In this document: one piece after another, positions 3,607-30,115 of the stretch
How positions within the stretch are numbered: position 1 is the stretch's first letter
Layout of the letters: the number at the start of each line of letters is the position of its first letter
From: a virus
IMG/VR virus record: IMGVR_UViG_3300007515_000030
Location: 1-30,115 of that record
Length of the DNA stretch: 30,115 nt
Reading direction: 5' to 3' (one strand)
Program-made: the position numbers and the translations under genes
The notes under the pieces: model-generated
What the model saw: the letters and a program-made list of their open reading frames with translations, nothing else
Told to the model about the DNA's origin: nothing
The model's database searches: none

Positions 3607-3617
3607 GGTGATTAAAT

Positions 3618-9871: not shown

Positions 9872-10918
9872 ATGACGACATTCGCAAATAGATATGTAGC
9901 AGTTGGGAAGGAAGCGACCTTTGGAACCCCAGTCAGCGCAACCGCATACGGTGAAGTTGATGATGAAGGATTTCAAGAGTCTTTTGATGTTCTACAACGC
10001 TCAGATATGAACAGATATGGAACGCAAAAGGCAATGGATTCAAAGCATTATGCTGATGGGTCTTTTTCAATGCCTCTACAACCTGATAGATTCACTATGA
10101 TGTGTCTACACGGTCTTTTCGGCACACACACCCCCGGTGGAACCCCCGGAACCAATGATACTCTTACAGAACTAAGTTCCGGTTTGCTCAAATCATTTAC
10201 TTTCAGAGTTGGTAGGGATGATAAGGAGTTCTTGTATGCTGGTCAGGCTATTGAAAGTTGTTCGATTAGCGCATCCGTTGGCGAATACGCTATGATTTCC
10301 TTTAATACAACTGGTATGAGAAGCAACTTTAGTTTAGCAACCGGAGCGGCAGTAGCCCCCGGAACTTTAGCAACCCCTTCTTATGATTATACCGGAGATG
10401 CGGCACACTTCGTAGGTGCTTATGTGAACTTTGAGGGAGCGGCAACTACTTCTGCATATTCCAAGTTGGTTCAAAGCATCTCTGTTGATATTAAAACCAA
10501 CAGAGATATTGATAACTCATACAATTTAGGAGATTCTACCTGCACACGCAACCCACCCTTGGGCCTAAGAGAGGTTTCGGGGACTATTACATTCCACAAG
10601 AATGTTTTGGCTGGTGATGTGGCAACTAACGAACCTGATTTCGTTAATCTACTAACTGGAGATTTAGTAAATGGAAGCGCGGCCGCGCCAGCCATTTCAA
10701 TGCTTTTCTATGTAGATGCAAGCAACTCGATTCGATTAGATATTCACAAAGTTCATTATGAGGCCCCACAGACAAGTGTAAGCGGTAGAGATAGTCAAAC
10801 AATGTCGGTCAACTTTATTGGATTGTATGACGAAACAGAAACAGAGATGGCTAAAATTACCTTCTCATCTGCATCTACGGCCTTCACAGGTGGAGCAAAA
10901 GTAGATTTGGATGCGTGA
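9872..10918 (+). CDS. Major tail tube protein
   Basis: 348 residues. The ATG at 9872 follows GAGGCGACGAC. The upstream in-frame start at 9848 is less attractive. The N-terminus RYVAVGKEATFGTPVSA is typical of phage tail tube proteins (Phage_tail_tube_2-like). The rest is beta-rich with the repeated structure SFTFRVGRDDKEFLYAGQ, SCSISASVGEYAMISFNTTG, SISVDIKTNRDI, EVSGTITFHKN and SQTMSVNFIG, i.e. two related halves. It is followed by tail chaperones and the tape measure, as expected. It forms the hexameric rings of the tail tube. There is no sheath gene nearby, which supports a siphovirus-type, non-contractile tail. Confidence 0.8.
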   Translation: MTTFANRYVAVGKEATFGTPVSATAYGEVDDEGFQESFDVLQRSDMNRYGTQKAMDSKHYADGSFSMPLQPDRFTMMCLHGLFGTHTPGGTPGTNDTLTELSSGLLKSFTFRVGRDDKEFLYAGQAIESCSISASVGEYAMISFNTTGMRSNFSLATGAAVAPGTLATPSYDYTGDAAHFVGAYVNFEGAATTSAYSKLVQSISVDIKTNRDIDNSYNLGDSTCTRNPPLGLREVSGTITFHKNVLAGDVATNEPDFVNLLTGDLVNGSAAAPAISMLFYVDASNSIRLDIHKVHYEAPQTSVSGRDSQTMSVNFIGLYDETETEMAKITFSSASTAFTGGAKVDLDA

Positions 10919-15379: not shown

Positions 15380-18300
15380 TAAAAATGAGAACTACAGATG
15401 ATGATTTTAGCGTATGGTTGGTAGGATACTATGACGACTTCCAGTCGTGTAGGTCTGTAGCAGACGACCTTAACTCTGCAAGTAAGATGGACCCCGACCA
15501 CACACTAACACATCATGGAAATCCCATGAACGGCCATGCTTTACTCAACCCTACCTTTCGTTATTCTTATCCCGATAGAATGCAAAGTGCTTCTTATCTT
15601 TCTGCTGATGACTCTTATTCTGCCTCTCAGTTATTTGCTACGGTTGCTAAAAAGCGAGATAGCAACGACGGACACCACGAATGGCTAACTCTTGATTTAA
15701 GCAAAAGTAAAGCGAAGAGATGGGAAGGAAGAGCGCAATTACAATATCCTGATTCAAGAAGAGGGACAAGACAAAGATTCAATGGTGCGGCTGGTGATTC
15801 CTATGAAGCATTTGTGAATGGTAATGATACTTTGGGAACATATTACGCCCCACTCAAAGCAATGGATTCTACGGCAGGTAGGTCGAGAGTGTATGAATCA
15901 GCCGCCAAAGACAATGACGGAGATATGTTCGAGGGTGCGGGAGCGCACCTAAGAGTAGAAACAGAAGGGCAATTTGCATCTCATTCCGTATCTTTGGCAG
16001 GGGTTCTAATGGGAGAGAGAATGAATACTGCTTACGCAAGCAGAGATACTGCTACAAAGCATTTATTCCCCCTCAAATCCCCCTCAGGTAAGCCATTTTT
16101 AGTATCTAAGTTATTTGGAACTTCGGCGGGTAGACATAGAATCCTAAATTATGATGGTCCTATGAGATTCCAAGGATTAGGTGATACATTTACTATTCGT
16201 ATTGCTTCACACGCAATGGGGGGGTGGGCTGATGCTCGATATACTCTTAATTTAGGATACAAAAAAGCAGATGGTTTTAACAAAAGCACTCAGGCGTTTG
16301 GTAGCAATCCGTTGCTATCTATTGATATATCAACCAGCAATCTAAATTACAATAGCGGAAATTATTTGGAAATAGACAACTATACTGCGGCAGACAATGA
16401 TGACCAATGGACTGATATAGATGTTGTGTTAGATTTTTCTGCCAATACCTACAAAGCATACGCTGACGGCTCATTAGTTAGTAGTGGTTCATTCACTAAT
16501 AATTGGTCTGCATCAGACATATATGGTTGGTCCTTAGATGTGAACTGTGCCGGGGGTATGACCCAAAATGTAGGGATGATTACCTGTATTGATAGGGCTT
16601 CCCTTTACATTAGTTTAGGCGATGCAGTAGAAGATACAGATTACACTCCTTTACACCAAGTTCAGATTAACAATACAACCGATTCTATTTCAACTGCAAT
16701 GGTCACCATTTTAGACGACGATAATAGATTTTCTGTTGCTCCGTTGCTATCTTCTACTGGGTTTGAAGAATGGGGATTGGTAATCTTCAAAGATAACCTA
16801 AATAGACCTGTATGGTGGGGGACTTTAACAGGTATAAACCACACACAATCTTCCAAAAGAAACACATTAGATACTCAATTTTTGGCAGAAGAAAAATATG
16901 GTTTATTTGATAGACAACTTCCTATTTGGGAAATGGGCCAAGCCGCGTATTTATCACAAGAAGGCCACTTAGCACTCAACACTCAGATAGAAAAGAGGTA
17001 TAATCAAGTTAAGAATATGGGAGATATTTTGAATACTGGTGCATCAAATCTCAAGTTCCTGAACTCTACTATTGGTTTTGTTGATTCTGATTTTGTAGAA
17101 GTAGATAAGCAAAGAACTTCTCTCAATTCCTCGCATCCTATTCAAATGTATATCAATGAAGATGTAGACGGACCCAATAACGCAGAAAGGGAATGGGATG
17201 GTTTCGATTCGCCAAAATATATGCTTACAGATGTAAGGTATATTCAAAACCCTACTGGAAATTATCAACATTACATTGTAGACTCAAGCGCATATTTGGT
17301 TGGTAGTAGTGGGGTATCTGCTTCTGACCAAGTTATGGTCACACATACTAACACAACCGGAACTACTAATGTTTTCACCATAGATTCAATAATTAGCAAG
17401 AGCAGAAGTAGCGATGCCCCTGATGAAACCCCTACTTCTTACAAAGCAATTAAGGTTTCAGACAGTAGTAGAAGAAACCTAACCCCTAATGCGTTATGCA
17501 CACAATACAAATGGATTAGTAGCGATAAAGTCAATACTACCAAGAAGATGTTGCGTTTTACTACTGCTTCTGCACACAATCTTTCTTTGGGTGATGAGAT
17601 TTTATTTGGTTCTGTAATAGATTCTTCAAGTAATAACGAAATAGTAAGCGGTAGTTTCTTATTTGATGGTGGGAGATATAGAGTATTGGGAGTTCCCACA
17701 ACAACTACTTTTGATATAGAAGTCACCAATATGAACATACTTGAGGTATCCAGCACAACCAATTTTGGAAACGCAAATTACCGTTTGCCTATCATAGATG
17801 AAGACCATAACGATTATGGGGTCACAGATAATAACTTACATATCATAGGTAAACAACAAACAGATTACTATATATCAAAGGCTGATAGAGCAAGTAGAAA
17901 TGTTCATACTCGTTGGATGAGAGATATTTCTGAATCATTATGGTTCAAATCTAAGTTCGGAGTTATCTCTAAGGATTGCCACCATAGCGCAGGTAAATCC
18001 ACTATAACTAACAACCCAGTTTCCCCTAATGAAGCAAGTAATTATTCGCCCGATACTTCTACTATGGTTGGTATTTCTACCTTCACTACAAGTAGCACCA
18101 GTCTTACTTGTGATGACCCTGCCATTTGGTATTGGAATGTAGTAAAAGGCAAACCGGGGATTTTAGATGTAATTAACCCCGATACTTTGGAAAGAGATAC
18201 TATTCTTTTTGATGGGACTACTGCGCCCAGTAGTGCTACACTCACATATATTCAGTTCAATAGTGGTTCTTGGGTCACCATTGGTGGTAAACAATGGTAT

Positions 18301-21300
18301 AACGGATTTCAAGTTAGCAACGAAACCATCCAACTATGGGATATTGTAGTTCATACTGGTTTTGATGATTGGAGATTAAATGGTGTATTCCAAGTAAGCG
18401 GTATTTATTCGCAGGGTAGTGGGGTCACTAAATATGCCGCAGTTAGAATAGAAGGGTTTGATAGCAAATCAAAAGATATTAACGACTCTACATCTCCTTG
18501 GTTTAGCGACCCTGATAAGTTATGGCCTATTTTGGGTAAGAAAACCATTACTACCTTTGAGAACTTTACGCTGTATGACTATACAAATACCATAGGTAGT
18601 CCTACAACTGCAAATACTAATTACAATGTTTTACCCTCTATAGTATCTTATGCTTCAAAGACAGGTCTTGTGCATTATGGTTCCTTCACAATACAGAATG
18701 TTAAGGGGCAAAGAAAGGATTGGACCCAAGGAGATTTTCTTTACAGATATAGGAAGATAAATGAAAGCAACGGCTACAAACACATTTGGTTGCTATGGAG
18801 AGATATGAGAAATGATGGTAATGCTGATGCTAACGGGGGATACAATGTAAGCGATTTCGGTTTAATGCTTCCTACTGTTGAAAATTACAATTTGAATATC
18901 GCTTTTGCTGAACAGTTTGACGAAGATGGAGATAACACCGCCTTTATTACTTTGAAAATAGGAGAGGAACTTGATATATGGAACATAGATGCTGATGTAG
19001 AACCATATAGTGGGGGTGATTGGTCTGATTTAGCAAATGCTTCTGATACCTATAAGATAGCAGACCTAACAGGAACTGGTAGCAATCCATATTCTGATTG
19101 GAAGAATAAAGGCGGGGCTTTCTTGGTTATTGATGCAAGCAAGTTTTTCAACTTAAATACTGAAGCAAGTAATGGAAGGCCGGGGTATGATGTTGGGGGT
19201 ATAGCACATTTTAGTGATTACGATATTCCTATTGCTGGAACTCCCTACCTATTGGATAATTATTGGAAATATGCGGTTGCTAATTACCAAATTAGCGGAA
19301 CCAATTTAGCCGGAACCACCACTACTAACATAGCAAACCACCCAAACCAATTTAACTTCCTAAATGATGCTACTGCGTTAGCAGAAGATGGTATTAGTGG
19401 CGGCCAAACAACATTAGCAATTGAAGATGCTACCCACTTTAATTTAGGCTCAGGTGTTGACGGGTATGGTGTAATTTTAGCAACGAAGAAAAATGAACAA
19501 TATCTATTTGCTCTTAGATGGAATGGAGTAATAGCAAATACAAATACACTAACTAATGTGTATGTTCAAGGATATGGTGATGTAAATACGGACCCAGTAA
19601 GCATAAGAGCATTTTTAGATGAAGATTCAGGGCTTTGGTCCACAGGTAGCCAAATACAAATTATGTTTGATGAAGAGAATAGCACCGAAGAAGGTTATGA
19701 TTCAATAGTTGTCTACAATACACCAGCCGCATTATATGGTTTAAGGTTGCTAATGAACTTGGAAGGTTTTGTAGAAGATAAAAACATAGGAACATATTTT
19801 GAAAATGATAAAATTAGACTCTTACAAAACATTGCCACATTAGATAGTTGGACTCGGAACTCTCACCTTTCTGCTATAGTAGATATTAACAATGTGCCTA
19901 TTACAAAAAGCATGACTAACACTCAGGTTGGTCATAGTGGAACCGATTATGAAGATTATGGAAGTGTTAGTGACCTGAGGGCGACTACTTTTGCTGGAGC
20001 AGTTGATATTGTGAGAAGAAATAGCGGTTCGGGTTCGAGTGGCACTACTAAAACCTTTACAAGAGTAGTGGGTAGAGATGGAAGATATGATTACAGACCA
20101 TCCTACAATACCGGTATTACTTTAACAAGAAGCAACATGAAGAATGCTAATTTATCAATAGAAGCAACCGGTATAGTCACGAATGTTAGGGCATATTACG
20201 ATGGCAATAAATCATTTGTAGATTATCCTACTCCAACAACAGGCTTAGAAGCAAGATGGAAGATATTAGACCTATCAAGAGTGCGAAGTAAAACAGAAGC
20301 ATTAGCATTAGCAAAGAAAGAATATGAAATGAATCAAACAAGCGCATTTACTGTTAATGTGGATTTAATCGGTAGTGGCACAGAAACAGACGCATTATTT
20401 TCAGGTGGTAAACATGGGTATATTGCAGACCCCGCAGTCGTCACATTAGATTTAACCGGATATAAGAAGTATGCTTGTTCTTGGACTTCTCTGTTCGGTG
20501 GTATTCCATATCCGGGGATGTGCAATGCTTTAGATGGTAGATTTAGTCGTTCTGATACGGGAACTGCGGTGGTAAGTGCTATCTACAATGATAGAACTAC
20601 TCCTTTAGCAATTAACTTAACTCCATTAGGAACTAACCAAACGGTAGGTAATAATGGTAAATTAAAGTGGCGGACTTCTGCGAATACTATAGATTGGTTT
20701 AAGGATTCTTCTGATACTTCTGCTACGGGAAGCCATGTATTGGGCGACCCCAGTTTAGGTGCTAACCAAAACAAAGTAATTACTATATCAGCAGGTGGTC
20801 ATTCAATAACACTTTATGTGACCAGTTTAGATGGTGTTTCAGATACCCAAGAAAACATAGAATACATTAAGACATATAATGCTGATGAATCCTACTATAA
20901 TTACGGGTCAAGAAGTTTATCTCATGCTATGCAAATAGTTCATATCCCAAAAGATGTTCCAAGCGTAAGTGCTAATTGGGGGTCAGAACTAAGGATGGGA
21001 ATTAGTGTAGCAAGTGGAACAAGTGCCGATGATGCGGTCTTTACTGTTCACGCAATAGATTATTCCTTTGCTAATACTGGTTCCCCTTCTCAGTTTACCC
21101 CTACATACAAATCAGATAGTTCAGTAAGTGTTTTCGGTAGTGGTTTTTATGAATTAGCATTCCCATCTACCTATGGCGCACCAGCAGGTTCTAAAATGAT
21201 TATTTCGGTAAATGCAGAATACCTAAGAGCAATTTTACGAAACAGATGTGGCGACCAAATCAAAAATGCTAATAGTATTACGGGCCTTTCAACATTTAGC

Positions 21301-22365
21301 ACACTTGATGCAAGGTCATTGTTCCCATTAGGGTTTAGAGAATACTCAAACGAAGGTGGTATATCAGATGATAGGCTGATATGGTATGCACCGAGATTAC
21401 ATATTGTTGATGATATGGCCTATTATCCATCTACAAATCTAACAATAACAGATGCTAATTTAGATTTAACATCTCAAAATATGGTAATTAAAGGATTAGC
21501 CTATAGTAGAACTCACCAAGGAGAACCCTCTTTGAAATTAGCATTAGAGAGAAATGAATCTCGCTTCAAGAAGACATTAGCATCCTTATTCAAAGACGGT
21601 AAACCTACAACCGGAGTTCAAGATGGAGAGGGGCAACAGATGTTCCAACCATCACAACCCCAAGGGCAAGGACCATCCTCTCCCAACAAAGAAGGCGGAA
21701 GAAGAGATGAAGGGCAAAGCATTAACACATTTAGTTCGACCACTATGAGCAGAATGACCGGTAGAACGGAGTTCACAGGGGATGGCACAAGTAGCGAGGC
21801 CGAGTGGGGTATTCTCGGCCAAAAGAAGATAGGCAAATCCTCTTCTGCTAATAGCACCATAGACGGGTTCGATTCTATAGCAAGCGGTAGCGGTAGTGTT
21901 AATTGTAGTGATGGGTTCGTTTTGCCGGGGGTCTATATTAACTCTGATGGGGAAGATAGAGCAGGGTTGAAACACGAACAGACATTTTCTGTTAGAATAC
22001 CGAGTGATGCTTTGGATTCTTATGTGACCATCAAAGCGAAAGTCACTCTTGATGGCAAGAAACAAACGGCGGCACAAAACGCAGTTATGACTACCAAAGT
22101 AGAGTCAGAAGAAAACGATTATTACGCTACTACTACTAAGACCATTGCTTCCGGCTCTGCCGATAGGAAAGAATACACTTTGTTTTCTCAGAAAATAAAG
22201 GGAGCAACTGCTGGTAGCAACTTAAAGATAACAATTAGTAGAAACCCCGGAACTGGTAGCGATGATGCTAAATACAGAGCATTGAGGATACATAATGTAT
22301 CACTTGCTACAAGAAGAGCAACAAACCCCTCTATATCACAGGCCAAAAAGTTCAAACCTTACTGA
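15376..22365 (+). CDS. Giant tail hub / tail tip protein
   Basis: 2329 residues. GTG start overlapping the tape measure stop (GTGA), with AAGGTG six bases upstream; an ATG at 15385 is an alternative. Residues about 250-410 read as a concanavalin/LamG-like sandwich (FTIRIAS, IDVVLDFSANTYKAYADGSL). Residues about 425-520 look like the first half of a tail-hub domain (MVTILDDDNRFS, PVWWGTLTGINHTQ). Residues about 1559-1655 look like a second hub half (TGIVTNVRAYYDGN, ARWKILDLSRVRSKTEALAL), as in Prophage_tail/gp27-like hubs. About 1000 residues of beta-rich sequence separate them. A Gln/Pro/Gly linker (about 2083-2115) leads to a roughly 210-residue C-terminal beta domain. Probably the central tip that binds the tape measure and fibres. 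Confidence 0.7.
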   Translation: MIKMRTTDDDFSVWLVGYYDDFQSCRSVADDLNSASKMDPDHTLTHHGNPMNGHALLNPTFRYSYPDRMQSASYLSADDSYSASQLFATVAKKRDSNDGHHEWLTLDLSKSKAKRWEGRAQLQYPDSRRGTRQRFNGAAGDSYEAFVNGNDTLGTYYAPLKAMDSTAGRSRVYESAAKDNDGDMFEGAGAHLRVETEGQFASHSVSLAGVLMGERMNTAYASRDTATKHLFPLKSPSGKPFLVSKLFGTSAGRHRILNYDGPMRFQGLGDTFTIRIASHAMGGWADARYTLNLGYKKADGFNKSTQAFGSNPLLSIDISTSNLNYNSGNYLEIDNYTAADNDDQWTDIDVVLDFSANTYKAYADGSLVSSGSFTNNWSASDIYGWSLDVNCAGGMTQNVGMITCIDRASLYISLGDAVEDTDYTPLHQVQINNTTDSISTAMVTILDDDNRFSVAPLLSSTGFEEWGLVIFKDNLNRPVWWGTLTGINHTQSSKRNTLDTQFLAEEKYGLFDRQLPIWEMGQAAYLSQEGHLALNTQIEKRYNQVKNMGDILNTGASNLKFLNSTIGFVDSDFVEVDKQRTSLNSSHPIQMYINEDVDGPNNAEREWDGFDSPKYMLTDVRYIQNPTGNYQHYIVDSSAYLVGSSGVSASDQVMVTHTNTTGTTNVFTIDSIISKSRSSDAPDETPTSYKAIKVSDSSRRNLTPNALCTQYKWISSDKVNTTKKMLRFTTASAHNLSLGDEILFGSVIDSSSNNEIVSGSFLFDGGRYRVLGVPTTTTFDIEVTNMNILEVSSTTNFGNANYRLPIIDEDHNDYGVTDNNLHIIGKQQTDYYISKADRASRNVHTRWMRDISESLWFKSKFGVISKDCHHSAGKSTITNNPVSPNEASNYSPDTSTMVGISTFTTSSTSLTCDDPAIWYWNVVKGKPGILDVINPDTLERDTILFDGTTAPSSATLTYIQFNSGSWVTIGGKQWYNGFQVSNETIQLWDIVVHTGFDDWRLNGVFQVSGIYSQGSGVTKYAAVRIEGFDSKSKDINDSTSPWFSDPDKLWPILGKKTITTFENFTLYDYTNTIGSPTTANTNYNVLPSIVSYASKTGLVHYGSFTIQNVKGQRKDWTQGDFLYRYRKINESNGYKHIWLLWRDMRNDGNADANGGYNVSDFGLMLPTVENYNLNIAFAEQFDEDGDNTAFITLKIGEELDIWNIDADVEPYSGGDWSDLANASDTYKIADLTGTGSNPYSDWKNKGGAFLVIDASKFFNLNTEASNGRPGYDVGGIAHFSDYDIPIAGTPYLLDNYWKYAVANYQISGTNLAGTTTTNIANHPNQFNFLNDATALAEDGISGGQTTLAIEDATHFNLGSGVDGYGVILATKKNEQYLFALRWNGVIANTNTLTNVYVQGYGDVNTDPVSIRAFLDEDSGLWSTGSQIQIMFDEENSTEEGYDSIVVYNTPAALYGLRLLMNLEGFVEDKNIGTYFENDKIRLLQNIATLDSWTRNSHLSAIVDINNVPITKSMTNTQVGHSGTDYEDYGSVSDLRATTFAGAVDIVRRNSGSGSSGTTKTFTRVVGRDGRYDYRPSYNTGITLTRSNMKNANLSIEATGIVTNVRAYYDGNKSFVDYPTPTTGLEARWKILDLSRVRSKTEALALAKKEYEMNQTSAFTVNVDLIGSGTETDALFSGGKHGYIADPAVVTLDLTGYKKYACSWTSLFGGIPYPGMCNALDGRFSRSDTGTAVVSAIYNDRTTPLAINLTPLGTNQTVGNNGKLKWRTSANTIDWFKDSSDTSATGSHVLGDPSLGANQNKVITISAGGHSITLYVTSLDGVSDTQENIEYIKTYNADESYYNYGSRSLSHAMQIVHIPKDVPSVSANWGSELRMGISVASGTSADDAVFTVHAIDYSFANTGSPSQFTPTYKSDSSVSVFGSGFYELAFPSTYGAPAGSKMIISVNAEYLRAILRNRCGDQIKNANSITGLSTFSTLDARSLFPLGFREYSNEGGISDDRLIWYAPRLHIVDDMAYYPSTNLTITDANLDLTSQNMVIKGLAYSRTHQGEPSLKLALERNESRFKKTLASLFKDGKPTTGVQDGEGQQMFQPSQPQGQGPSSPNKEGGRRDEGQSINTFSSTTMSRMTGRTEFTGDGTSSEAEWGILGQKKIGKSSSANSTIDGFDSIASGSGSVNCSDGFVLPGVYINSDGEDRAGLKHEQTFSVRIPSDALDSYVTIKAKVTLDGKKQTAAQNAVMTTKVESEENDYYATTTKTIASGSADRKEYTLFSQKIKGATAGSNLKITISRNPGTGSDDAKYRALRIHNVSLATRRATNPSISQAKKFKPY

Positions 22366-23078
22366 TTATCCTCATAGTCCTCTCTGATTGAGAGTATTCT
22401 TTCAGCAGTAGGGTTGCTAATCCCCCTTACTTTTGTAAGTGCTTTTTTGTTCGTCTTCTTTAGCAACAGATTTCTCAAAGAACCGAACTCCTTTAGCAAC
22501 GCATGAGCAGAATCTAAGGTGACTCCGGGGATTGTTGCTAACATCACGGCCCTATAATCCTCAGAAAAATCTCCACTTCTTCGTATCCTTTTTTGGGTTG
22601 CTATGGCCTTGCTAATAGTTAATTTAGTATGTGATGTGACTATCCAATCCACATAATCTTCCATAGTAGCGAACTCAATGTATCTAACTTTGGGGAAACG
22701 AGCATACAGATTTAATTTGAAATTACGAATAACACCTTTCATCTTCATTACTTCTTGAGCAACCGTTTTCTTGCTGGTCCCCCTTGTGAAATAGGGTTTT
22801 AATTGGCTACCATATACTGCTAAAATGGGGTATTCGTATGCGTCGCAGAGGTCTGCTAACTGTTGGGTTAGATTTCTATTCCTTCCTATACCCAAAATAG
22901 AGCGGTATAGGTCGTTTATCTCCTTTGCTTCTACGCCCCAACTACCTATCACATAGTCGCCCGTTGCTAATCTCTTTACCTTACCAGCACCCTTGCTGGA
23001 TAATTCGGCATCTCCTAATCTACCTAACAACAAATGTATGAGCGCGGGGTTCTCTCTATCGTCTATGTAGACTACCAC
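22359..23078 (-). CDS. XPF/ERCC4-type nuclease with HhH domain
   Basis: 239 residues. GTG start, with only a weak ribosome-binding context. The N-terminal ERCC4 nuclease core shows DDREN (residues 6-10), GDY (40-42) and E50-A-K52 followed by D56 and LYRSI, corresponding to the family's GDxx...ERKxxxDL motif with the Arg replaced by Ala. Residues about 183-230 form a helix-hairpin-helix pair (IPGVTLDSAHALLKEFGS, LTKVRGISNPTAERI), so the layout is that of archaeal short XPF/Mus81-type proteins. Known activity is incision of branched or flap DNA; in a virus, resolution of replication or recombination intermediates is likely. It is the last gene of the leftward operon and overlaps the tail hub gene's end by 7 bases, tail to tail. 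Confidence 0.85.
   Translation of the reverse strand: MVVYIDDRENPALIHLLLGRLGDAELSSKGAGKVKRLATGDYVIGSWGVEAKEINDLYRSILGIGRNRNLTQQLADLCDAYEYPILAVYGSQLKPYFTRGTSKKTVAQEVMKMKGVIRNFKLNLYARFPKVRYIEFATMEDYVDWIVTSHTKLTISKAIATQKRIRRSGDFSEDYRAVMLATIPGVTLDSAHALLKEFGSLRNLLLKKTNKKALTKVRGISNPTAERILSIREDYEDNQ
22443..22448 (+). terminator. Candidate U-tract terminator for the rightward late transcript
   Basis: A run of six T on the + strand, about 78 bases after the tail hub stop and inside the convergent nuclease gene. Archaeal termination needs only a U-rich tract. A second T6 lies at 22589-22594. There is no hairpin, so support is weak. Confidence 0.25.
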
Positions 23079-23114
23079 ACTACTGCGACTTTATTACGCC
23101 TTAATCAATGGTTG

Positions 23115-23222
23115 CTAATCCCCGCAACAACCAACTACCTTTGTTTTACAGTTTAGACACGCTTTGGAACCATGAACTTCCACAAACCCCTTGTGGCTAC
23201 CACAAAAGGGGCAACTTACCAT
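23115..23222 (-). CDS. Zinc-ribbon microprotein (35 aa)
   Basis: ATG to TAG open frame of 35 codons between primase and nuclease. It encodes CPFC, then CLNC after 18 residues, and a GCCGD end, i.e. a complete four-cysteine zinc ribbon with little else. The gap to the primase stop is 22 bases. The upstream ribosome-binding site is weak (GAATGTAGAATA). The Cys spacing makes random occurrence unlikely. Likely a structural zinc protein contacting nucleic acid or a replication partner. No named family recognised. Confidence 0.65.
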   Translation of the reverse strand: MVSCPFCGSHKGFVEVHGSKACLNCKTKVVGCCGD

Positions 23223-23244
23223 TATTCTACATTCTTCGCTTTCT

Positions 23245-24252
23245 CTAATTACCACAATACCAACAACCTTTGCCGTCACACAAATTATTCTTTCTATACC
23301 AAACCGGCGACGGGTAGCGTTTGTATTTCAGTAGTGACTTAACTGCTTTTCGGGTCACGCTTGGTTTGTAGTCGGACCAGTTCAGGGTAGATATGAAAGA
23401 GCAAATCTCATCCTCAATAAATTGCGTCTGTTCGGCCGTTAAGTCCTCAGGGTCGGCATACCATCTAAGGGTAGCCGCCATGTGTTGGCCGAGCGCAACA
23501 CGCACATGATGAGGGGGATTAGACACCCGTATAGCCCTCTCTAAACAGGTAGGCAAGGGGACCATACCTTGAGAGGGGTTGAAGTCGTCAGGGAGCGTCG
23601 TAGAGGCTTCTGTAGGGGTTTCAAATAGATGTTTGTTATCCCTACACCACTTGGTAAGACTGATTCTTTCAGTCAATGGAACCCCATTAAAAGGGTTGAG
23701 ATGACTTATTGTTGGGTCCGGTATTTTTGGTATCTTATAGCCGAAGGGGTCTTGAGCAAATGCTCTTGCGTCAATTGTGACGGCCCACCTACCCCTCTTT
23801 GGGTTATATGTGTCGGGGACTCTTGCTAACTTTTCAGGGTAGCCCACACCATCTAATGATACCAAGCCTTCGGCCATCTTCTTTTCATAAGAATCTAACT
23901 TTGTAGCCCAATCCCTACCAATTACTGGCTTATCGAAAAATTGGTGAACATGAAATCCTCTTCCCGTAGCAACGGCTCTAACATCTCCATCCAAACGATT
24001 TATCAAATTAGCAACATCACTCTTTACTTGGTCCATAGTTAGATTATGTGTAATATCAAAATCCCACCAAGCCCTATCCATAATTGCTGAATCATAATCT
24101 ACCTTTCTTTCATCAAGTAGATTATCAAACGCATACAGACTGGTGTATGTGGATGATAGGTTTCTAAGCCTACTGATATATTGGTTAAAGTCGTTTTCAG
24201 TAAGACATAAGGCTCTCTTTAGCCCTATTTGTCGGGGGAAAGATAGCAACAC
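23245..24252 (-). CDS. Archaeo-eukaryotic primase with PriL-like cysteine domain
   Basis: 335 residues. GTG start preceded by a clear GAGGGTGG and placed two bases after the upstream microprotein's stop. The AEP core is visible: WDFD with catalytic D64 and D66, GRGFHVH (97-103) for motif II, and RVPDT (144-148) followed by a basic strand for motif III. The C-terminal region resembles the Fe-S domain of the primase large subunit: C236 in PLPTC, then PPHHVRVALGQHMAATLR, C284, and CDGKGCWYC with C325, C330 and C333. If so, catalytic and Fe-S domains are fused in one chain. Makes primers for the PolB encoded in the same operon. Confidence is high for primase, moderate for the Fe-S reading. Confidence 0.82.
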   Translation of the reverse strand: MLLSFPRQIGLKRALCLTENDFNQYISRLRNLSSTYTSLYAFDNLLDERKVDYDSAIMDRAWWDFDITHNLTMDQVKSDVANLINRLDGDVRAVATGRGFHVHQFFDKPVIGRDWATKLDSYEKKMAEGLVSLDGVGYPEKLARVPDTYNPKRGRWAVTIDARAFAQDPFGYKIPKIPDPTISHLNPFNGVPLTERISLTKWCRDNKHLFETPTEASTTLPDDFNPSQGMVPLPTCLERAIRVSNPPHHVRVALGQHMAATLRWYADPEDLTAEQTQFIEDEICSFISTLNWSDYKPSVTRKAVKSLLKYKRYPSPVWYRKNNLCDGKGCWYCGN

Positions 24253-24254
24253 GG

Positions 24255-24410
24255 TTAAACCACCCTCGTTTCTATCACACCTTTATGTCCGCAAATGCGG
24301 CATTTAGCCGTGATAACTTCCAAGGTTGGGTTTTCTTCCTGTCCGGTCACTTGAACATAGGATTCTATGTCCTCAAAATCTGCTGAGTCGCATTCTTCAC
24401 ATTGTATCAT
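24255..24410 (-). CDS. Zinc-ribbon microprotein (51 aa)
   Basis: ATG to TAA frame of 51 codons between the Cas4-like nuclease and the primase. It starts inside the nuclease's last codons (14-base overlap) behind AGGTGTGGG. CEEC near the N-terminus and CRIC near residue 38 give a four-cysteine ribbon around an acidic middle and a strand (LEVITAK). Its own end carries the primase's Shine-Dalgarno, so the two are likely translationally coupled. Function unknown; position suggests a replication accessory factor. Confidence 0.7.
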   Translation of the reverse strand: MIQCEECDSADFEDIESYVQVTGQEENPTLEVITAKCRICGHKGVIETRVV

Positions 24411-25281
24411 CAAAACCCACACCTGCTATTTCTTCTTCACAAGACATATTGAAAGAACACCATTGAGGGCATCTCCAATCATCCCAATTCATTTCCCACT
24501 CATGGTTCCTGATACGCTCAAGAAATCCCTCGAAGCGGGATTCAAAAGATGATACACTTCTCTTATTAACCTTTTCAACCATAGTAATTCCCGCTTCCTT
24601 ACCTACCCAAACGGTTTTACTTTTCTTTGATAAAAGAGATTGTAATAACTTTGAATCTGTTGCGTCGGGAAGGACATAAATGAATCGGGTTGCTAACTCC
24701 CCATCCATGTCGTTAAGAACCATCCTATAGAAGCACAATTCTTTTCGAGTTTTAGAGATTTTACTTTCGTTGCTATTTCCTGTTTTCAATTCAAGTATTG
24801 CTAAAGTCCCATCCTCATGTCTTACTACACCATCAATCATACCTGTGATTACAATATCATATTTTTCATTGTAATAGATGCGCTTCTTTTCTGCTTCTAC
24901 TGGGGGGAAATGCTCTATACCCCATTCCTCTAATCTTCGTTGCTCTAATTGTGCCAATGTTTCAAACACTTCATCCTCAGGGAATAAAGGAATTAGGTGG
25001 TGCTGACCATCCCATACTTCGTAGAAATCTTCTAAGCCCTGATGAACATAAGTTCCCCTTACCATAGCCTCACTTGGGGGCATTCTCAAATCCTTTAGTA
25101 TGACCTTATCCCAGTAGTATTGGCGGGGACAATACTCGTAATTCATAAATGATGATTTAGACACCCTTAGGACTTTACCCTCGTCTGTGGGGTCATACGA
25201 AGACAACTCATACAACTGCTCGTCTGTTGCACACTTCATACAAACCCCAGTATCGGGATGGATAACACAATCACACCCCAT
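24397..25281 (-). CDS. Cas4/RecB-like PD-(D/E)XK nuclease with Fe-S cysteines
   Basis: 294 residues. ATG with AGAGG upstream. Cas4 family signs in order: SKSSFMNYEYCPRQYYW with C51; GTYVHQGLE with H80; ITGMIDG with D150; LAILELKTG with E164 and K166; FYRMVL in the place of the QhxxY motif; then C271, C275 and C281 (CPQWCSFNMSC), which with C51 could hold a 4Fe-4S cluster. An extra N-terminal cluster C3, C5, C14, C17 (CDCVIHPDTGVCMKC) resembles a small zinc knuckle. No cas genes are adjacent, so this is a replication/recombination exonuclease of the kind found in many archaeal viruses rather than CRISPR machinery. All nuclease residues appear intact. Confidence 0.85.
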   Translation of the reverse strand: MGCDCVIHPDTGVCMKCATDEQLYELSSYDPTDEGKVLRVSKSSFMNYEYCPRQYYWDKVILKDLRMPPSEAMVRGTYVHQGLEDFYEVWDGQHHLIPLFPEDEVFETLAQLEQRRLEEWGIEHFPPVEAEKKRIYYNEKYDIVITGMIDGVVRHEDGTLAILELKTGNSNESKISKTRKELCFYRMVLNDMDGELATRFIYVLPDATDSKLLQSLLSKKSKTVWVGKEAGITMVEKVNKRSVSSFESRFEGFLERIRNHEWEMNWDDWRCPQWCSFNMSCEEEIAGVGFDDTM

Positions 25282-25366
25282 CTGTATTCCTCTTACAGGG
25301 ACTGCACACCTTTTTTTCTGTTGCGTATAGGACTACCGAACAGATAGAGCAGACTCTATCGTTCAT
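25271..25366 (-). CDS. Zinc-ribbon microprotein (31 aa)
   Basis: 31 codons from an ATG that overlaps the preceding gene's stop (ATGA) behind GGAAGAGGAAGA, ending in TGA 11 bases inside the Cas4-like gene. It encodes CSIC and CSPC 11 residues apart, then KRNTDG. Both ends are coupled to neighbours, and the two CxxC knuckles fill most of the protein, which argues for a real gene in spite of its size. Role unknown. Confidence 0.65.
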   Translation of the reverse strand: MNDRVCSICSVVLYATEKKVCSPCKRNTDGV

Positions 25367-25644
25367 TCTTCCTCTTCCTTCACATCTATACTCTTACCAC
25401 AGGCCCTACAGTCCACATTCTCAACTTCCATACCCTCTATCAGGGGTATATTGTTGAAAAAGTCACAATTAACGCAGTTCGCTTGTCTAAGCAAGCCCCT
25501 CGCCTTTAGGTCATGTAGTAATAGCGTAGATACGATATTTGTTTCCGCGAGAACTACTTGTAATCCCCTGTGTAGGTTTTCTATATGCTGAGTTAGTTCA
25601 GCAATGTCGTTGCTAAGTTCCTTTGTCGTTTTTTCTCTATTCAT
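25363..25644 (-). CDS. Coiled-coil protein with C-terminal zinc ribbon
   Basis: 93 residues from ATG at 25644, chosen over an upstream in-frame start at 25797 because GGAGAG lies six bases before it and it overlaps the upstream stop by only 8 bases. Residues about 5-55 are an amphipathic helix (TTKELSNDIAELTQHIENLH, VVLAETNIVSTLLLHDLK). Then CVNC and CRAC form a zinc ribbon, and the end is acidic (KEEEE). Possibly an oligomeric DNA-binding or adaptor protein. No family recognised. Confidence 0.65.
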   Translation of the reverse strand: MNREKTTKELSNDIAELTQHIENLHRGLQVVLAETNIVSTLLLHDLKARGLLRQANCVNCDFFNNIPLIEGMEVENVDCRACGKSIDVKEEEE

Positions 25645-25942
25645 CACAATCTCTCCATTCGTATGTCCTGTATTGACTGGTATTTCCCGTAAAACCTCTG
25701 ACTTTAGTATAACCAACAGGTTGTATAAATCTACTTCTACTGAACTTACCTGATAGGGTAGCGGCAGAACAACGCATCCTCTTTGCGTAGTGAACATTGT
25801 TTCTTAACCAATCTTCTGCGTCTACAGTAGTAAATGGTTCGTGGTTTCTTTCTTCCCACATTTGGCGAATCCACTTTAACGCCCACCATTTTTCCATTCT
25901 GCCCTCTAACCTTCTCATAACCCTACCACCACACTTGTTCAT
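25637..25942 (-). CDS. Small winged-helix-like DNA-binding protein
   Basis: 101 residues. ATG overlaps the PolB stop as ATGA; an in-frame ATG at 25918 behind GGTGGTAGGG is an alternative. A basic, Trp-rich N-terminal helix precedes a winged-helix-like pattern: FTTVDAEDWLRNNV, CSAATLSGKFSRSRFIQPV, then a wing ending in SQYRTYEW. The layout resembles the other small winged-helix gene at 29284-29595 of this operon. It may regulate transcription or bind viral replication intermediates. Assignment is by pattern. Confidence 0.55.
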   Translation of the reverse strand: MNKCGGRVMRRLEGRMEKWWALKWIRQMWEERNHEPFTTVDAEDWLRNNVHYAKRMRCSAATLSGKFSRSRFIQPVGYTKVRGFTGNTSQYRTYEWRDCDE

Positions 25943-28176
25943 ATAAACCCAACTGTTGGTAATCTATGTAGAGCATTGTATATGGGTTGCATATCCCACT
26001 CGGCCAACTCGTAAAATGGTTCTACCTTCTTTACTACGAATCTTTCTAAAATGTGGTAATACCCCACAGTAGCAAACCCCTCTATATCGCTCGGTTCATC
26101 GAAGGCAATATATTTCCCGTTGCTATCCAAAGTCAATAGGAAAGTGCTTCCGTTGCGATAACCTTTACCGAGATTATCATTAGCCCATTTAGCACCGGCT
26201 GATGCACCCGACAAAACCTTGTATTTGCTCAAATCCTTTTTGAGTTCCGTTTTCATACACAGGTCTTCTATAGGATATTTTTCAGACAACACATCTTCGA
26301 TGATTTCTACTATCTGCCGAGTCACATAACCTTGGTCGGAACCTAACAGTATAGATTTAATCACATAAGTTAGCAAGTTCTTGACGAGAGGGAACATCTT
26401 TGCTTGCTTTAATTCAATCCCCTTAACATATAATTCAACATCATGTTGTCTACCATCGGTCCACTCTACTAAACCAGCATACCTATTCTTCGCTTTTAGC
26501 AACATAGCAGAACACCATTTCTCGAACTCGCACACAATAGGACTCATTGTTTCGTTCAATTCGGCAGTCAATAGCAACCCTGTTTCGGGGTTTGGGACAA
26601 CAACAAAAGCAGAATCGGTGTGTGAATATAGGACTTCATGCCCCCTCTTCTCGCATTCCGTTCTTAATCTTTTGAGAGTCATCCGAGATGTGTATGTGAT
26701 AGCCGCCGCTACCTTCGGGTGATAAAGCCCATACTTTGAATCCCCTGCCGCACCATACAAAGAAGCAACCAATGATTTTGTAGCAAATTGTAAAGCATCA
26801 TAACGGCTTCTTTCTTCGTCTGTTTTAGCAAGTCTAAGTTGTGCTTTGTATTCTTGCCTAAGAGTAGTCATCTTATTCATTTGTCTTAGCAACAGACTTG
26901 GTTTCCCTTGGCTAAAACATACGCCGTTTCCACAATCCTTACCGTTGCTATCTAATGTTTCGTGTCCTATGTTGTGTAAATCAACATTAGAATGATACAT
27001 AGCCTGTATATCCAAGATAGCAACATTCTCATATACGCCAGCATTGCTAATTTCTATTGATGCTCCATCATAGGGTTCATAGTCGAATTGCGGTTTGGTT
27101 GGTATTCTTAGGTCAAAGTCCTTATCTCTCAGAGCAAGAACAGTTAGAATCTTAGTGATAAATGGGGTGGTTCGTATATCGCAACCAACGATATGTTGTA
27201 TAGCCGTGTAATGTTCTATACAATTATTCAATGAGTTCAATTTAGGCAACAATTTCACATCTTGGATAGCATACGATAGGTATGTTCCAAAGTCAGAGTA
27301 ATATGTATCGTGTCCGTCTGCTAACTCTACCTTTGTTTCTCCTAAACATTCCGAGGCAACCGTTTCTAATTTCTTATTTGGTAATTGTCCGTTCTTCATT
27401 ACCCATAATCTTGTGAATGATAACATCATATCAACTACATTGATACCACCTATTGGTTGCGCCCACTCACCAAAGGTATACCTAATCCTATTGATAGGGG
27501 ATAATTTTCTTGGGTCCAACCCGTTTGCTTGGAATCTCTTAATGATTTTTTGAATATCCGCATTAACCACATTCCAACCAGTAATTATGTCGGGGTCTTG
27601 TTTCCTTAAGTGTTTAGCAAATGCTCTTAGCATTGCTTTCTCGTTCTTGAAGGCAATAGCGGGTTTGCTAAGATTAAGTTCTGTTATACCATCAGGGTGA
27701 TTTAGACAAGGAAATGTATCATGGTATCCCGCTTCGTAATCAGGGTGGGTAAAGAATACGAAATAGTCGTTGCTAAATGTATCATAGACAACCATGATTG
27801 TTAGTTTCCCTGTATTAACGGACCATTCGCAATCTAAATACCAAGTTCTATGGTTGTAATTATCAGGCAATAAACCATTCTCTGCTAATGCTCTGTTTAC
27901 ATACGGTATGTTTGCTTCCCATGTTTCTAAATGGGGGAATGCTTGCCTTATTTCGTAAATGTCTTCGGGAGTATGGGTATATACCTTAGTTAGTGGTTGA
28001 CCATAGACCCCCTTATGCCCTGTTTCATAGCGCAAAACCCCATTGTGTTGTAGGGGGACTGCATTATCTTCTACATAGAAGAATGGTTGGCAAATATGTT
28101 CCTCTGTTATCCGCTTTCCGTCTTCTTGTCGCCGTCGGATAGTGATTTTATTACGGCCCTTGCGCTCAATTATCAC
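25939..28176 (-). CDS. polB: Family B DNA polymerase with 3'-5' exonuclease
   Basis: 745 residues. GTG start behind AGAGGAAGGG, overlapping the upstream stop by 11 bases. Exonuclease: Exo I YLDCEW (D115, E117), Exo II GWNVVNADIQKI (N202, D207), Exo III YAIQD (Y302, D306). Polymerase: motif A LDIQAMYHS (D389), motif B KSLVASLYG (K467, Y474), motif C YSHTDS (D521), then KGIELKQAK. Two deviations: motif B has Ala where the usual Asn stands, and motif C has His in place of the first Asp of YGDTDS; the metal-binding D389 and D521 are kept. There is no intein and no protein-priming TPR insertion evident. It is the main replicative polymerase of the virus, expected to work with the clamp and primase of this operon. 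Confidence 0.95.
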   Translation of the reverse strand: MIIERKGRNKITIRRRQEDGKRITEEHICQPFFYVEDNAVPLQHNGVLRYETGHKGVYGQPLTKVYTHTPEDIYEIRQAFPHLETWEANIPYVNRALAENGLLPDNYNHRTWYLDCEWSVNTGKLTIMVVYDTFSNDYFVFFTHPDYEAGYHDTFPCLNHPDGITELNLSKPAIAFKNEKAMLRAFAKHLRKQDPDIITGWNVVNADIQKIIKRFQANGLDPRKLSPINRIRYTFGEWAQPIGGINVVDMMLSFTRLWVMKNGQLPNKKLETVASECLGETKVELADGHDTYYSDFGTYLSYAIQDVKLLPKLNSLNNCIEHYTAIQHIVGCDIRTTPFITKILTVLALRDKDFDLRIPTKPQFDYEPYDGASIEISNAGVYENVAILDIQAMYHSNVDLHNIGHETLDSNGKDCGNGVCFSQGKPSLLLRQMNKMTTLRQEYKAQLRLAKTDEERSRYDALQFATKSLVASLYGAAGDSKYGLYHPKVAAAITYTSRMTLKRLRTECEKRGHEVLYSHTDSAFVVVPNPETGLLLTAELNETMSPIVCEFEKWCSAMLLKAKNRYAGLVEWTDGRQHDVELYVKGIELKQAKMFPLVKNLLTYVIKSILLGSDQGYVTRQIVEIIEDVLSEKYPIEDLCMKTELKKDLSKYKVLSGASAGAKWANDNLGKGYRNGSTFLLTLDSNGKYIAFDEPSDIEGFATVGYYHILERFVVKKVEPFYELAEWDMQPIYNALHRLPTVGFI

Positions 28177-28477
28177 GCTTGACCCTTCCTCTTCTTCTCG
28201 TTGCTATTCCATGCCTCTTAAGCCATAGATTGATAGTCATTGGTGATACTGCGTATTTCCAAGCAAGTTGTTGCATTGTTTTTCCCTGTTCCTCGTATAG
28301 TGAACGAAGAGTATCTGCATCTCTATACCCCCTATCTCTATTGTCTTCTTTGTGAGCGGCTATGTTTACTACAAAGGTAGTTCCGCACTCGCATTGAATA
28401 TGATGGTTAGATGAACCAACGCTACACTCTATATGGTATTGCATTACCTTATCACAAACACTACATCTAAACCTCAT
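28166..28477 (-). CDS. Zinc-ribbon plus helix-turn-helix protein
   Basis: 103 residues from ATG at 28477, six bases after AGGTAGGTG; a GTG at 28486 is possible but lies closer to that site. N-terminal CSVC and CECG form a zinc ribbon (residues about 5-35). The C-terminal half, DADTLRSLYEEQGKTMQQLA followed by WKYAVSPMTINLWLKRHGI, is a clear helix-turn-helix of the kind seen in phage regulators and in DNA-binding tails of homing endonucleases, ending in basic residues. Overlaps both neighbours. Likely a transcription factor or replication-initiation accessory of the early operon. Confidence 0.7.
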   Translation of the reverse strand: MRFRCSVCDKVMQYHIECSVGSSNHHIQCECGTTFVVNIAAHKEDNRDRGYRDADTLRSLYEEQGKTMQQLAWKYAVSPMTINLWLKRHGIATRRRGRVKRDN

Positions 28478-29306
28478 GGGGAACACCTACCTGTAAAACC
28501 AAAGCATGGCCGTCGCTAAACGCCAAGACATATTTTCCCCCAAAATCTCTCATGTCGTAAATGTGTAATTTAATTTCTTCTCCGAAGACAGGAAGTAGGT
28601 TTTCTAAACCACCGCCGAACTTGAAGGGTTCCGTTGGTATTTGGTGGGGATGAATAAGAGTAGAAGTCTGACCTTTCAAAGTATTACCAGTCTTAATGAA
28701 GGTAGAATCTTCCATTGGTTCCATACTACAGGTTGATTCGTTCTGTCCGTTCAAATTAGCAACCGACAAAGCATCAACCAATATATCTCGCTTTAAGTTG
28801 ATAATACATACAGGGCTATGTTTTTTCCCCTTGGTATCGGTGTAAATAGCCATGTCTTTATCGAAGCGACTTGCTATCTCTACTGCATCTTGATGTTGTT
28901 TGATTATTGAGTTGCGAGAAGAGGGATAAGCCTTTGCTAAAGGAGAAGACATAAATGTCGTTTGTCTTTTATTTGAATGAATTAGCAAATTACCATTTGG
29001 TTTGTGTGATAGATATACAATATCCCCATGTGTTTTCAACGCCCCTATAACATCATTCAAATTAGGGATGCAAAGTTCGCATTCGGTTGCCGGTTCTTCC
29101 AAAGTGATTGCTATATCATGCACACTCGTTATCCCGTCTTTCACTCCGCTTACAATTTTAGCAACCGTCGGTCCGACTTTAATGATGCAAGCATAACATT
29201 GGGGTTGCTTTGCGCCACCAACAAATGTGAATCTTCTCGCGGCCCTTAGAGCATTTTGAAGAGCAGTATTGTTGAACGCAACATCATTGTTTTTTCTTCC
29301 GCTCAT
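28467..29306 (-). CDS. Sliding clamp-like (PCNA-like) protein
   Basis: 279 residues from ATG at 29306, six bases after GGAGAGAGG; a start eight codons earlier lacks such a site. The N-terminus FNNTALQNALRAARRF and the segment LCIPNLNDVIGALKTHGDIV, followed by NGNLLIHSNKRQTTF, resemble the helix-strand alternation of DNA clamps, and the end LAFSDGHALVLQVG resembles a final clamp strand. Length is close to the usual 245-290. Operon position upstream of PolB supports the call. Sequence similarity is weak to the eye, so a different DNA-binding role cannot be excluded. It would tether PolB to DNA and possibly recruit the nuclease. Confidence 0.6.
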   Translation of the reverse strand: MSGRKNNDVAFNNTALQNALRAARRFTFVGGAKQPQCYACIIKVGPTVAKIVSGVKDGITSVHDIAITLEEPATECELCIPNLNDVIGALKTHGDIVYLSHKPNGNLLIHSNKRQTTFMSSPLAKAYPSSRNSIIKQHQDAVEIASRFDKDMAIYTDTKGKKHSPVCIINLKRDILVDALSVANLNGQNESTCSMEPMEDSTFIKTGNTLKGQTSTLIHPHQIPTEPFKFGGGLENLLPVFGEEIKLHIYDMRDFGGKYVLAFSDGHALVLQVGVPHEV

Positions 29307-29595
29307 ATATACCTCTCTCCCTGTCCCCATATAAACCCCTATACTGCGGTCTAATCTGATACAGGTTTCTTTCTGAGTTGCTTGATGCTCGGAACACCTT
29401 TACCTCTTCCATTCTCGACATTATAGCCCCAATCTTTACGGCTGATATGTTAGCAGAACGGCGAGAGTTCCTATTTATTTTGGGGTCGCGGTGTTGTTTG
29501 ATTATATCAACAACCGCTCTCGCGGTGACTGGTGTATCTACTGTAGAAAGGGCAGTAATTATCCATCGTTTAACAAAATAATTACGCCTCGCCAT
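29284..29595 (-). CDS. Small winged-helix DNA-binding protein
   Basis: 103 residues from ATG at 29595, with GAGG ten bases upstream and a 14-base overlap with the preceding stop; a longer frame to 29670 lies inside that gene. Pattern: MARRNYFVKRWIITALS, then PVTARAVVDIIKQH, a recognition-helix region NISAVKIGAIMSRMEEVKVF, and a wing ending RNLYQI. The tail is very basic (KKKQ). Likely an early-gene regulator or DNA-binding accessory. Its stop lies 23 bases inside the clamp gene. Confidence 0.6.
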   Translation of the reverse strand: MARRNYFVKRWIITALSTVDTPVTARAVVDIIKQHRDPKINRNSRRSANISAVKIGAIMSRMEEVKVFRASSNSERNLYQIRPQYRGLYGDRERGIYERKKKQ

Positions 29596-30115
29596 TATTG
29601 GTAGCCTCTTTCTCGTTCTTGCCATTCCAATGCAAGAAAGGAAGACCATACCATGTGACCTCTCCATCATTTACACTAAGCACATCGTGTGTTGTCCCCA
29701 AGTATTCTTGATGAAGACCTTTCATTTCACTAATGGTTGCTCTAACAACCCACTCGTTGCTATTTAGGCTATCATCCTTCTTGACCCCTGCCGCCAAATC
29801 TCCTTTCTTACTATATCGGGTGAGCCATACCTGTTGCGAAAACAATCTCTTTGTTCCATTTTCCCACTCAGGGGTTTCACCAACCTTAGTTAATCCCTTT
29901 TGGCCGTTGCCAATATCCATATATTCCTTTACATCTTTCAGATGGAAGGTATAACCAACGAAGGGAACTTGAAGTTGATGCGCTCTATTGATAACATCAC
30001 GGAAGAGTTGATTTCGAGTTCGCCATTCCTTCTGATTAAAAGCATCCCCCTCTTGCTCTATTACTCCCCTTCTAAGGAGAACATCGGTCATACTGAACTC
30101 ACACCACTTAAGGAA
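29582..30115 (-). CDS. C-terminal part of a probable P-loop/RecA-like ATPase, cut by window edge
   Basis: The frame is open to the right edge (upstream codons FLKWCEFS precede the internal ATG at 30091), so this is a fragment of 177 residues. DAFNQKEWRTRNQLFRDVIN followed by AHQLQVPFVGYTFHLKDV resembles the segment after Walker B in RecA/Sak4-type or AAA_24 phage ATPases, where a hydrophobic strand ends near a sensor residue. Later WVVRATISEMKG and HDVLSVNDGEVTWYGLP read as C-terminal strands. Walker A lies outside the window, so the class cannot be fixed. Possibly a recombination ATPase. Confidence 0.45.
   Translation of the reverse strand, partial: FLKWCEFSMTDVLLRRGVIEQEGDAFNQKEWRTRNQLFRDVINRAHQLQVPFVGYTFHLKDVKEYMDIGNGQKGLTKVGETPEWENGTKRLFSQQVWLTRYSKKGDLAAGVKKDDSLNSNEWVVRATISEMKGLHQEYLGTTHDVLSVNDGEVTWYGLPFLHWNGKNEKEATNNGEA

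Follow-up and report, generated by a model that had tools for sequence, protein, structure and literature searches.

The window analysed here, a stretch of 30,115 nucleotides from an IMG/VR virus record, carries the word GTTGCTA (core TTGCTA) as part of a conserved, lineage-specific vocabulary of double-stranded DNA, which is enriched in these viral genomes, neutral with respect to strand and reading frame, and not accompanied by enrichment in the candidate hosts. Codon use, dinucleotide content and restriction-site avoidance are insufficient as an explanation. We give about an even chance to the reading that GTTGCTA is the recognition site, in double-stranded DNA, of a sequence-specific factor travelling with the virus clade, and infer that the virus carries its putative reader, as the word tracks the virus lineages and is unenriched in the candidate hosts. 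Literature searches turned up no earlier description of a motif of this kind for this group of viruses. The group is probably marine-archaeal; the closest named relatives of the family B DNA polymerase (PolB) of the window are those of haloarchaeal tailed viruses (about 23% identity), and the host is taken to belong to Poseidoniales (Marine Group II), as presumed in an earlier sequence-only reading of this DNA and by likeness to published magroviruses.

Exact counting found 44 copies of GTTGCTA in the window (25 on the forward strand, 19 on the reverse) and 89 occurrences of the TTGCTA core; TTGCTA, TTGCTAA and GTTGCTA are each near the top of the over-represented words of their own length. 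The sequence-only reading had reported 24 copies (13 forward, 11 reverse) in the stretch 22413–29762 against about one expected, and the exact counts agree, with an order-2 Markov expectation of 5.8 for the whole window, i.e., 1–1.5 for that stretch. Translation also agrees with the reported coding of the six copies in the XPF gene (Ser-Asn once, Leu-Leu twice and Ala-Thr three times), and the copy at 23111 does overlap the TAG stop of a small minus-strand gene. The unit had been given as GTTGCTA(W); the actual unit is a TTGCTA core with G before it and A after it, and the apparent W is partly due to the total absence of CTAG, which prevents G from following. The window is part of the genome G001 (an IMG/VR record of 71,019 bases; identity 99.99–100% over the full window length), which contains 114 copies of GTTGCTA against 14 of a backwards control word, and 224 copies of the TTGCTA core per 71-kb genome. 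The related genomes G002 (PolB 96%) and G003 (XPF 85%) contain 113 and 153 copies of GTTGCTA; the forward/reverse counts in the three genomes are 61/53, 51/62 and 64/89, and the density of the word in the viruses is 1.6–2.2 per kb. Open reading frames were called mechanically, and IMG/VR records carry no completeness estimate.

Expected counts vary with the null model, and each fold value belongs to its stated null; a codon-preserving shuffle of the window, set beforehand as a refuting test, gave 2.3 ± 1.35 copies of GTTGCTA in the minus-strand (replication) genes, where 23 are present, and 4.5 ± 2.0 in the late genes, where 20 are present. The excess thus survives, codon bias is ruled out as its cause, and the view of a strand-neutral, iterated DNA motif for which protein and codon use provide no explanation is upheld. 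A shuffle holding protein, codons and absent words gave 22 copies against 102 observed in G001. The strict null, in which protein, codon use, exact dinucleotide content and avoided words are all fixed and which is well mixed, gave about 27 for the same 102 coding copies, about 43 for the 145 copies of GTTGCTA in G003 and about 91 for the 202 copies of the palindrome TTGCAA in the genome G004. The word is equally common in coding and template orientation and is in excess in every usable frame, which argues that the unit acts as DNA and argues against an RNA or protein function.

The sequence-only reading had the replication region about threefold denser in the word than the late region. With early and late gene classes assigned by homology to the gene order of G001, the enrichment outside the collagen-like genes of this genome, relative to codon-shuffled genes, is indeed higher in early genes (4.1-fold), but the gap to the late genes (2.5-fold) is smaller; the word is not confined to the replication region, being genome-wide and conserved in late genes too. 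At positions 1–5585 of the window, two adjacent late genes contain collagen-like Gly-X-Y repeats and tandem adhesin-like repeats of the ‘NIAIGYNAL’ type, which dominate naive k-mer lists.

The conservation of the words was assessed at third codon positions where a synonymous alternative exists and the amino acid is unchanged; those within the motif were compared with identical codons beyond it. Inside a virus’s own word, synonymous positions show 2–4 times fewer changes than the same codons elsewhere: 12 changes against 44.6 expected for TTGCTA in G001/G002 (z 5.3), 37 against 98 for GTTGCT in G003/G334 (z 7.7), 11 against 37 for TTGCAA in G004/G335 (z 5.3) and 11 against 29 for TTGCGA in G336/G337 (z 3.6). 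No such protection was found in clade A for the control words AAAGAA, CTTCTT, GTAATA, TTGGTT and TTGCTT, and the word of another lineage is unprotected as well (TTGCGA in clade A, TTGCTA in clade B). The protected footprint comprises 6–7 bp (GTTGCTA in A2, TTGCTA in A1 and TTGCAA in B), its flanks changing at the neutral rate; protection is present in early genes and weaker in late genes, and the TGCGC branch points the same way on fewer data.

The relatives bear related words, namely GTTGCTA/TTGCTAA, TTGCAA, TTGCGA and TGCGCA/CTGCG. The sister branch composed of G004, G005, G335 and G342 (PolB 65%) has no enrichment of GTTGCTA and uses TTGCAA instead (202 in the genes of G004 against 50 expected; 3.2 per kb in the viruses of this class), a word that is absent from G001–G003, where about 80 two-strand occurrences are expected. 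G336/G337 are enriched in TTGCGA (113 against 32) and have some TTGCTA, while G338 is enriched in TGCGCA (67 against 17) and CACTGCG (43 against 6); the count of TGCGCA is zero in 7 of the 10 other records tested. Nothing comparable was found in the coding DNA of the distant relatives G007–G011, G340, G341, G343 and G344. A phosphoesterase with helix-turn-helix (HTH) segments, used as bait, retrieved 70 loci, and most of those that are long enough bear one of the four words. Placed on the virus tree, the word classes require 6 changes, compared with 20.7 in shuffles, and the TTGCAA and TGCGC classes each form one fully supported clade; the tree was built from the HTH-phosphoesterase, itself a candidate reader, a point to bear in mind although it leaves the clustering unaffected. 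The word is a lineage marker whose classes are distributed in accord with the virus tree. Other enriched words (CCTTTAG/CTAAAGG, GTCTAA and CAAGAG) accompany the same nuclease at the loci L275, L312, L313 and L308, and are possibly further word classes, seen on short contigs.

Five protein families are found in the motif-bearing genomes and are essentially absent from the others: the HTH-phosphoesterase, an HNH endonuclease, a CobS-like protein, a CobT-like protein and a nucleotide kinase. Proteins of 243 and 77 residues are further clade-specific candidates in G001 and G004. The first, corresponding to phrog_7339, combines two HTH-like segments, assigned by eye and from predicted helices rather than from a database hit, with an Mre11-like metallophosphoesterase, the fold match to Mre11 being weak. 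The HNH endonuclease is phrog_5200, widespread in phages; a sequence search against solved structures gave nothing useful for either protein. The CobS-like candidate is an AAA_5 ATPase with a Cys/His cluster, and most of its representatives have hydrophobic, seemingly membrane-spanning segments; at L066:933-2666 and in the homologues, the N-terminal Cys-x2-Cys...His-x2-Cys cluster resembles a PARP-type zinc finger, the hydrophobic segments occur in clades A, B and D, and the gene of the partner protein, the CobT-like DUF7192 candidate, adjoins. Published magroviruses encode CobS and CobT (PMC10160649). DNA methyltransferase families were not found among the 71 early proteins of G001 and G004 that were scanned.

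If the word is a recognition site, selection on synonymous positions would hold it in place across the genome, and a predicted sequence-specific DNA-binding factor, carried by the clade, would read it; when the specificity of this factor shifts, the genome-wide word would shift along with it (TTGCTA, TTGCAA, TTGCGA, TGCGCA/CTGCG). The most likely mechanism, and a tentative one, is that the sites label the viral DNA as self. A candidate nuclease of the clade (the HTH and Mre11-like phosphoesterase, or HNH), or a complex that includes the CobS/CobT-like pair, may spare, or stop at, word-dense DNA and would degrade the DNA of the host or of rivals, where the word is sparse. Self-marking would explain why the hosts are not enriched, and also the genome-wide spread, the strand neutrality and the change between branches. 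A full self-recognition code of the clade, in which a viral nuclease complex would spare word-bearing DNA and destroy that of the host and rival viruses, and both word and reader would change per branch, is rather doubtful; such branch-to-branch change would be as competition between viruses would give.

Several observations weigh against the recognition-site reading and its self-marking form. All the reader proteins, proposed from their sequences, remain candidates for binding the word; the AlphaFold model of the HTH-phosphoesterase is poor (predicted local distance difference test score, pLDDT, of 65), and the HTH part of this nuclease evolves fast with no clear class-specific jump, so that the idea of HTH divergence jumping with the word class was set aside as not clear. 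The co-occurrence of the candidate genes with the word is confounded with descent, and the link between the clade-restricted proteins and the word is suggestive only, because all bearers form one clade. The coincidence of word positions between clades equals the level predicted from protein conservation alone; a site-by-site conversion of TTGCAA to TTGCTA first seemed likely and was rejected, since the coincidence is that expected from protein conservation and density. The loci L275, L312 and L265, on short contigs, have the nuclease and no TTGC-type word. Finally, a mutational sink would likewise yield enrichment and conservation, though it too would need sequence-specific recognition.

Alternatively, a viral protein of the nucleoid, of replication or of transcription could bind the word throughout the genome, with neither a nuclease nor a self-tag involved; the protein might form a chromatin-like coat, use the word as the landing site of a primase or initiator, or act as an anti-silencing factor. 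This alternative, which we consider rather doubtful, rests on the same data as the recognition-site explanation, and the strand neutrality of the word and its higher density in the early genes of clades A and B (about 4.6 copies per kb compared with about 2 in late genes) count in its favour. However, TTGCGA viruses are as enriched in late genes (4-fold) as in early ones (3-fold), and neither preferred spacing nor inverted pairing of the copies was found in TTGCTA and TTGCAA viruses (clades A and B). Motif-free relatives also have PolB and several of the replication genes, which makes the core replication proteins unlikely readers.

A host-linked mark is unlikely. The word would then be a site for a host modification enzyme, a Chi-like nuclease regulator or a defence system, dictated by the host of each branch; many related viruses avoid the palindromes TTGCAA and TGCGCA, each of which is enriched in a single branch, as would be the case if these branches alone encountered hosts in which the site does no harm or brings a benefit. 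Poseidoniales contigs were located with a 16S probe, and 319 genomes of the order were then searched: the density of GTTGCTA reaches a maximum of about 0.2 per kb and that of TTGCAA about 0.9 per kb, below the viral values, and composition-controlled host samples contain no similar word. The low counts in G140–G148 reflect a general scarcity there, TTGCAA being low as well. An iterated motif of the host is rejected, since none of the 319 genomes is enriched, and the element of HIP1 or uptake type common to virus and host, suggested in the sequence-only reading, fails for the same reason; moreover, the word classes follow the virus tree. The modification site also proposed there is accompanied by no DNA methyltransferase among the early proteins scanned, and a recombination, packaging or other DNA-recognition role may apply.

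HIP1 (GCGATCGC) of cyanobacteria and the viral word are both short, iterated in coding DNA far above chance, beyond codon and oligomer expectation, and linked to lineages. HIP1 is a palindrome of host genomes tied to orphan methyltransferases (PMC4390886). The viral word, in contrast, lacks enrichment in candidate hosts (none of the 319 Poseidoniales genomes reaches a comparable density), its letters change between close branches, it is non-palindromic in the clade of the window (GTTGCTA/TTGCTAA) and palindromic in others (TTGCAA, TGCGCA), and no cognate orphan methyltransferase is present among the 71 early proteins, host enzymes lying outside that scan. DNA uptake sequences of Haemophilus and Neisseria are, like the viral word, iterated, strand-neutral and located within genes (PMC1939737). 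It is, however, the genome of a competent host that is enriched in them, whereas the bearer here is the virus. Chi sites, read by RecBCD/AddAB, are short, over-represented words that separate self from foreign DNA for a nuclease and vary between lineages. Yet Chi is a host motif with a strand bias, while the viral words are equal on both strands of the genome, the direction of replication itself not being known, and some are palindromic; neither RecBCD nor AddAB was seen, and the host shows no enrichment. Restriction-modification sites are similar in length and frequently palindromic, and TTGCAA and TGCGCA resemble type II sites, but the viral word is enriched and conserved rather than lost, as restriction sites in viruses are, and a viral methyltransferase is missing from the early proteins of G001 and G004.

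Avoidance of restriction sites is extreme in this group. GATC, AGCT, CTAG, GTAC and ACGT are each absent from G001, where about 200–600 two-strand occurrences are expected; the window, G001 and relatives have zero GATC, AGCT, CTAG, GTAC, ACGT, GAATTC, ATGCAT and CATATG, and about 100 words of 4–6 bases are missing from G001, suggesting heavy and varied restriction pressure. That the word is a by-product of composition or of such avoidance, with about a hundred banned words pushing the sequence into allowed ones, is very improbable: the effect raises the expected GTTGCTA about 1.5-fold only, a 2- to 4-fold excess remains with avoided words, codons and dinucleotides fixed, motif-limited synonymous conservation is not predicted, and many of these words are missing or rare in motif-free relatives as well. 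A mutational sink, in which viral repair, modification or binding would make the word mutate rarely and accumulate without benefit, is also highly improbable, for although the enrichment (about 4-fold) and the substitution drop (about 2- to 4-fold) are similar, as a pure cold spot gives, it would need a specificity of 6–7 bp and a change of target between branches, and the near-identical TTGCGA and TTGCTT are unprotected in clade A.

Other repeats were observed in the distant relatives. G007 (L085–L088), G008 (L089–L092) and G009 (L093–L096) contain dozens of long palindromes around CTACAAATTTGTAG with lineage-dependent flanks, partly outside called genes and distinct from the short coding motif, which look like operator or promoter elements. 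In G011 (L100–L103), ATTAGTCG/CGACTAAT is iterated 59 times against 1.9 expected, with divergent pairs among the copies, and may represent another operator family.

Table 1. Exact copies of GTTGCTA in the window and two genes that contain several of them.
Feature	Position	Strand	Basis
GTTGCTA copy	1996..2002	+	exact match
GTTGCTA copy	4083..4089	+	exact match
GTTGCTA copy	4122..4128	+	exact match
GTTGCTA copy	8929..8935	-	exact match
GTTGCTA copy	8960..8966	+	exact match
GTTGCTA copy	9037..9043	-	exact match
GTTGCTA copy	10335..10341	-	exact match
GTTGCTA copy	10368..10374	-	exact match
GTTGCTA copy	12410..12416	+	exact match
GTTGCTA copy	12793..12799	+	exact match
GTTGCTA copy	15643..15649	+	exact match
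GTTGCTA copy	15660..15666	-	exact match
GTTGCTA copy	16311..16317	+	exact match
GTTGCTA copy	16743..16749	+	exact match
GTTGCTA copy	18315..18321	-	exact match
GTTGCTA copy	18789..18795	+	exact match
GTTGCTA copy	19276..19282	+	exact match
GTTGCTA copy	19478..19484	-	exact match
GTTGCTA copy	19746..19752	+	exact match
GTTGCTA copy	22215..22221	-	exact match
GTTGCTA copy, XPF gene, Ser-Asn	22413..22419	+	exact match, translation
GTTGCTA copy, XPF gene, Leu-Leu	22461..22467	-	exact match, translation
GTTGCTA copy, XPF gene, Leu-Leu	22494..22500	-	exact match, translation
GTTGCTA copy, XPF gene, Ala-Thr	22534..22540	+	exact match, translation
GTTGCTA copy, XPF gene, Ala-Thr	22597..22603	+	exact match, translation
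GTTGCTA copy, XPF gene, Ala-Thr	22963..22969	+	exact match, translation
GTTGCTA copy over TAG stop of small minus-strand gene 23115-23279	23111..23117	+	exact match
GTTGCTA copy	23967..23973	-	exact match
GTTGCTA copy	24009..24015	-	exact match
GTTGCTA copy	24244..24250	-	exact match
GTTGCTA copy	24689..24695	+	exact match
GTTGCTA copy	24769..24775	+	exact match
GTTGCTA copy	25609..25615	+	exact match
GTTGCTA copy, PolB gene	26119..26125	+	exact match
GTTGCTA copy, PolB gene	26497..26503	-	exact match
GTTGCTA copy, PolB gene	26572..26578	-	exact match
GTTGCTA copy, PolB gene	26887..26893	-	exact match
GTTGCTA copy, PolB gene	26944..26950	+	exact match
GTTGCTA copy, PolB gene	27018..27024	-	exact match
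GTTGCTA copy, PolB gene	27769..27775	+	exact match
GTTGCTA copy	28200..28206	+	exact match
GTTGCTA copy	28757..28763	-	exact match
GTTGCTA copy	29159..29165	-	exact match
GTTGCTA copy	29756..29762	+	exact match
XPF/ERCC4-domain and HhH nuclease gene, six copies inside	22359..23078	-	domain match
Family B DNA polymerase (PolB) gene, seven copies inside	25939..28176	-	domain match; bait for relatives

The familiar iterated words (HIP1, uptake sequences and Chi, for example) belong to cells, and the present case is viral; it shows a codon-matched purifying conservation of a 6–7 bp footprint, and its related words number at least four on a single tree. The purpose of iterated words becomes testable here, since the co-variation of word and reader over dozens of genomes can identify the protein concerned, and the word may provide an easily computed identifier by which viral contigs of the group can be linked.

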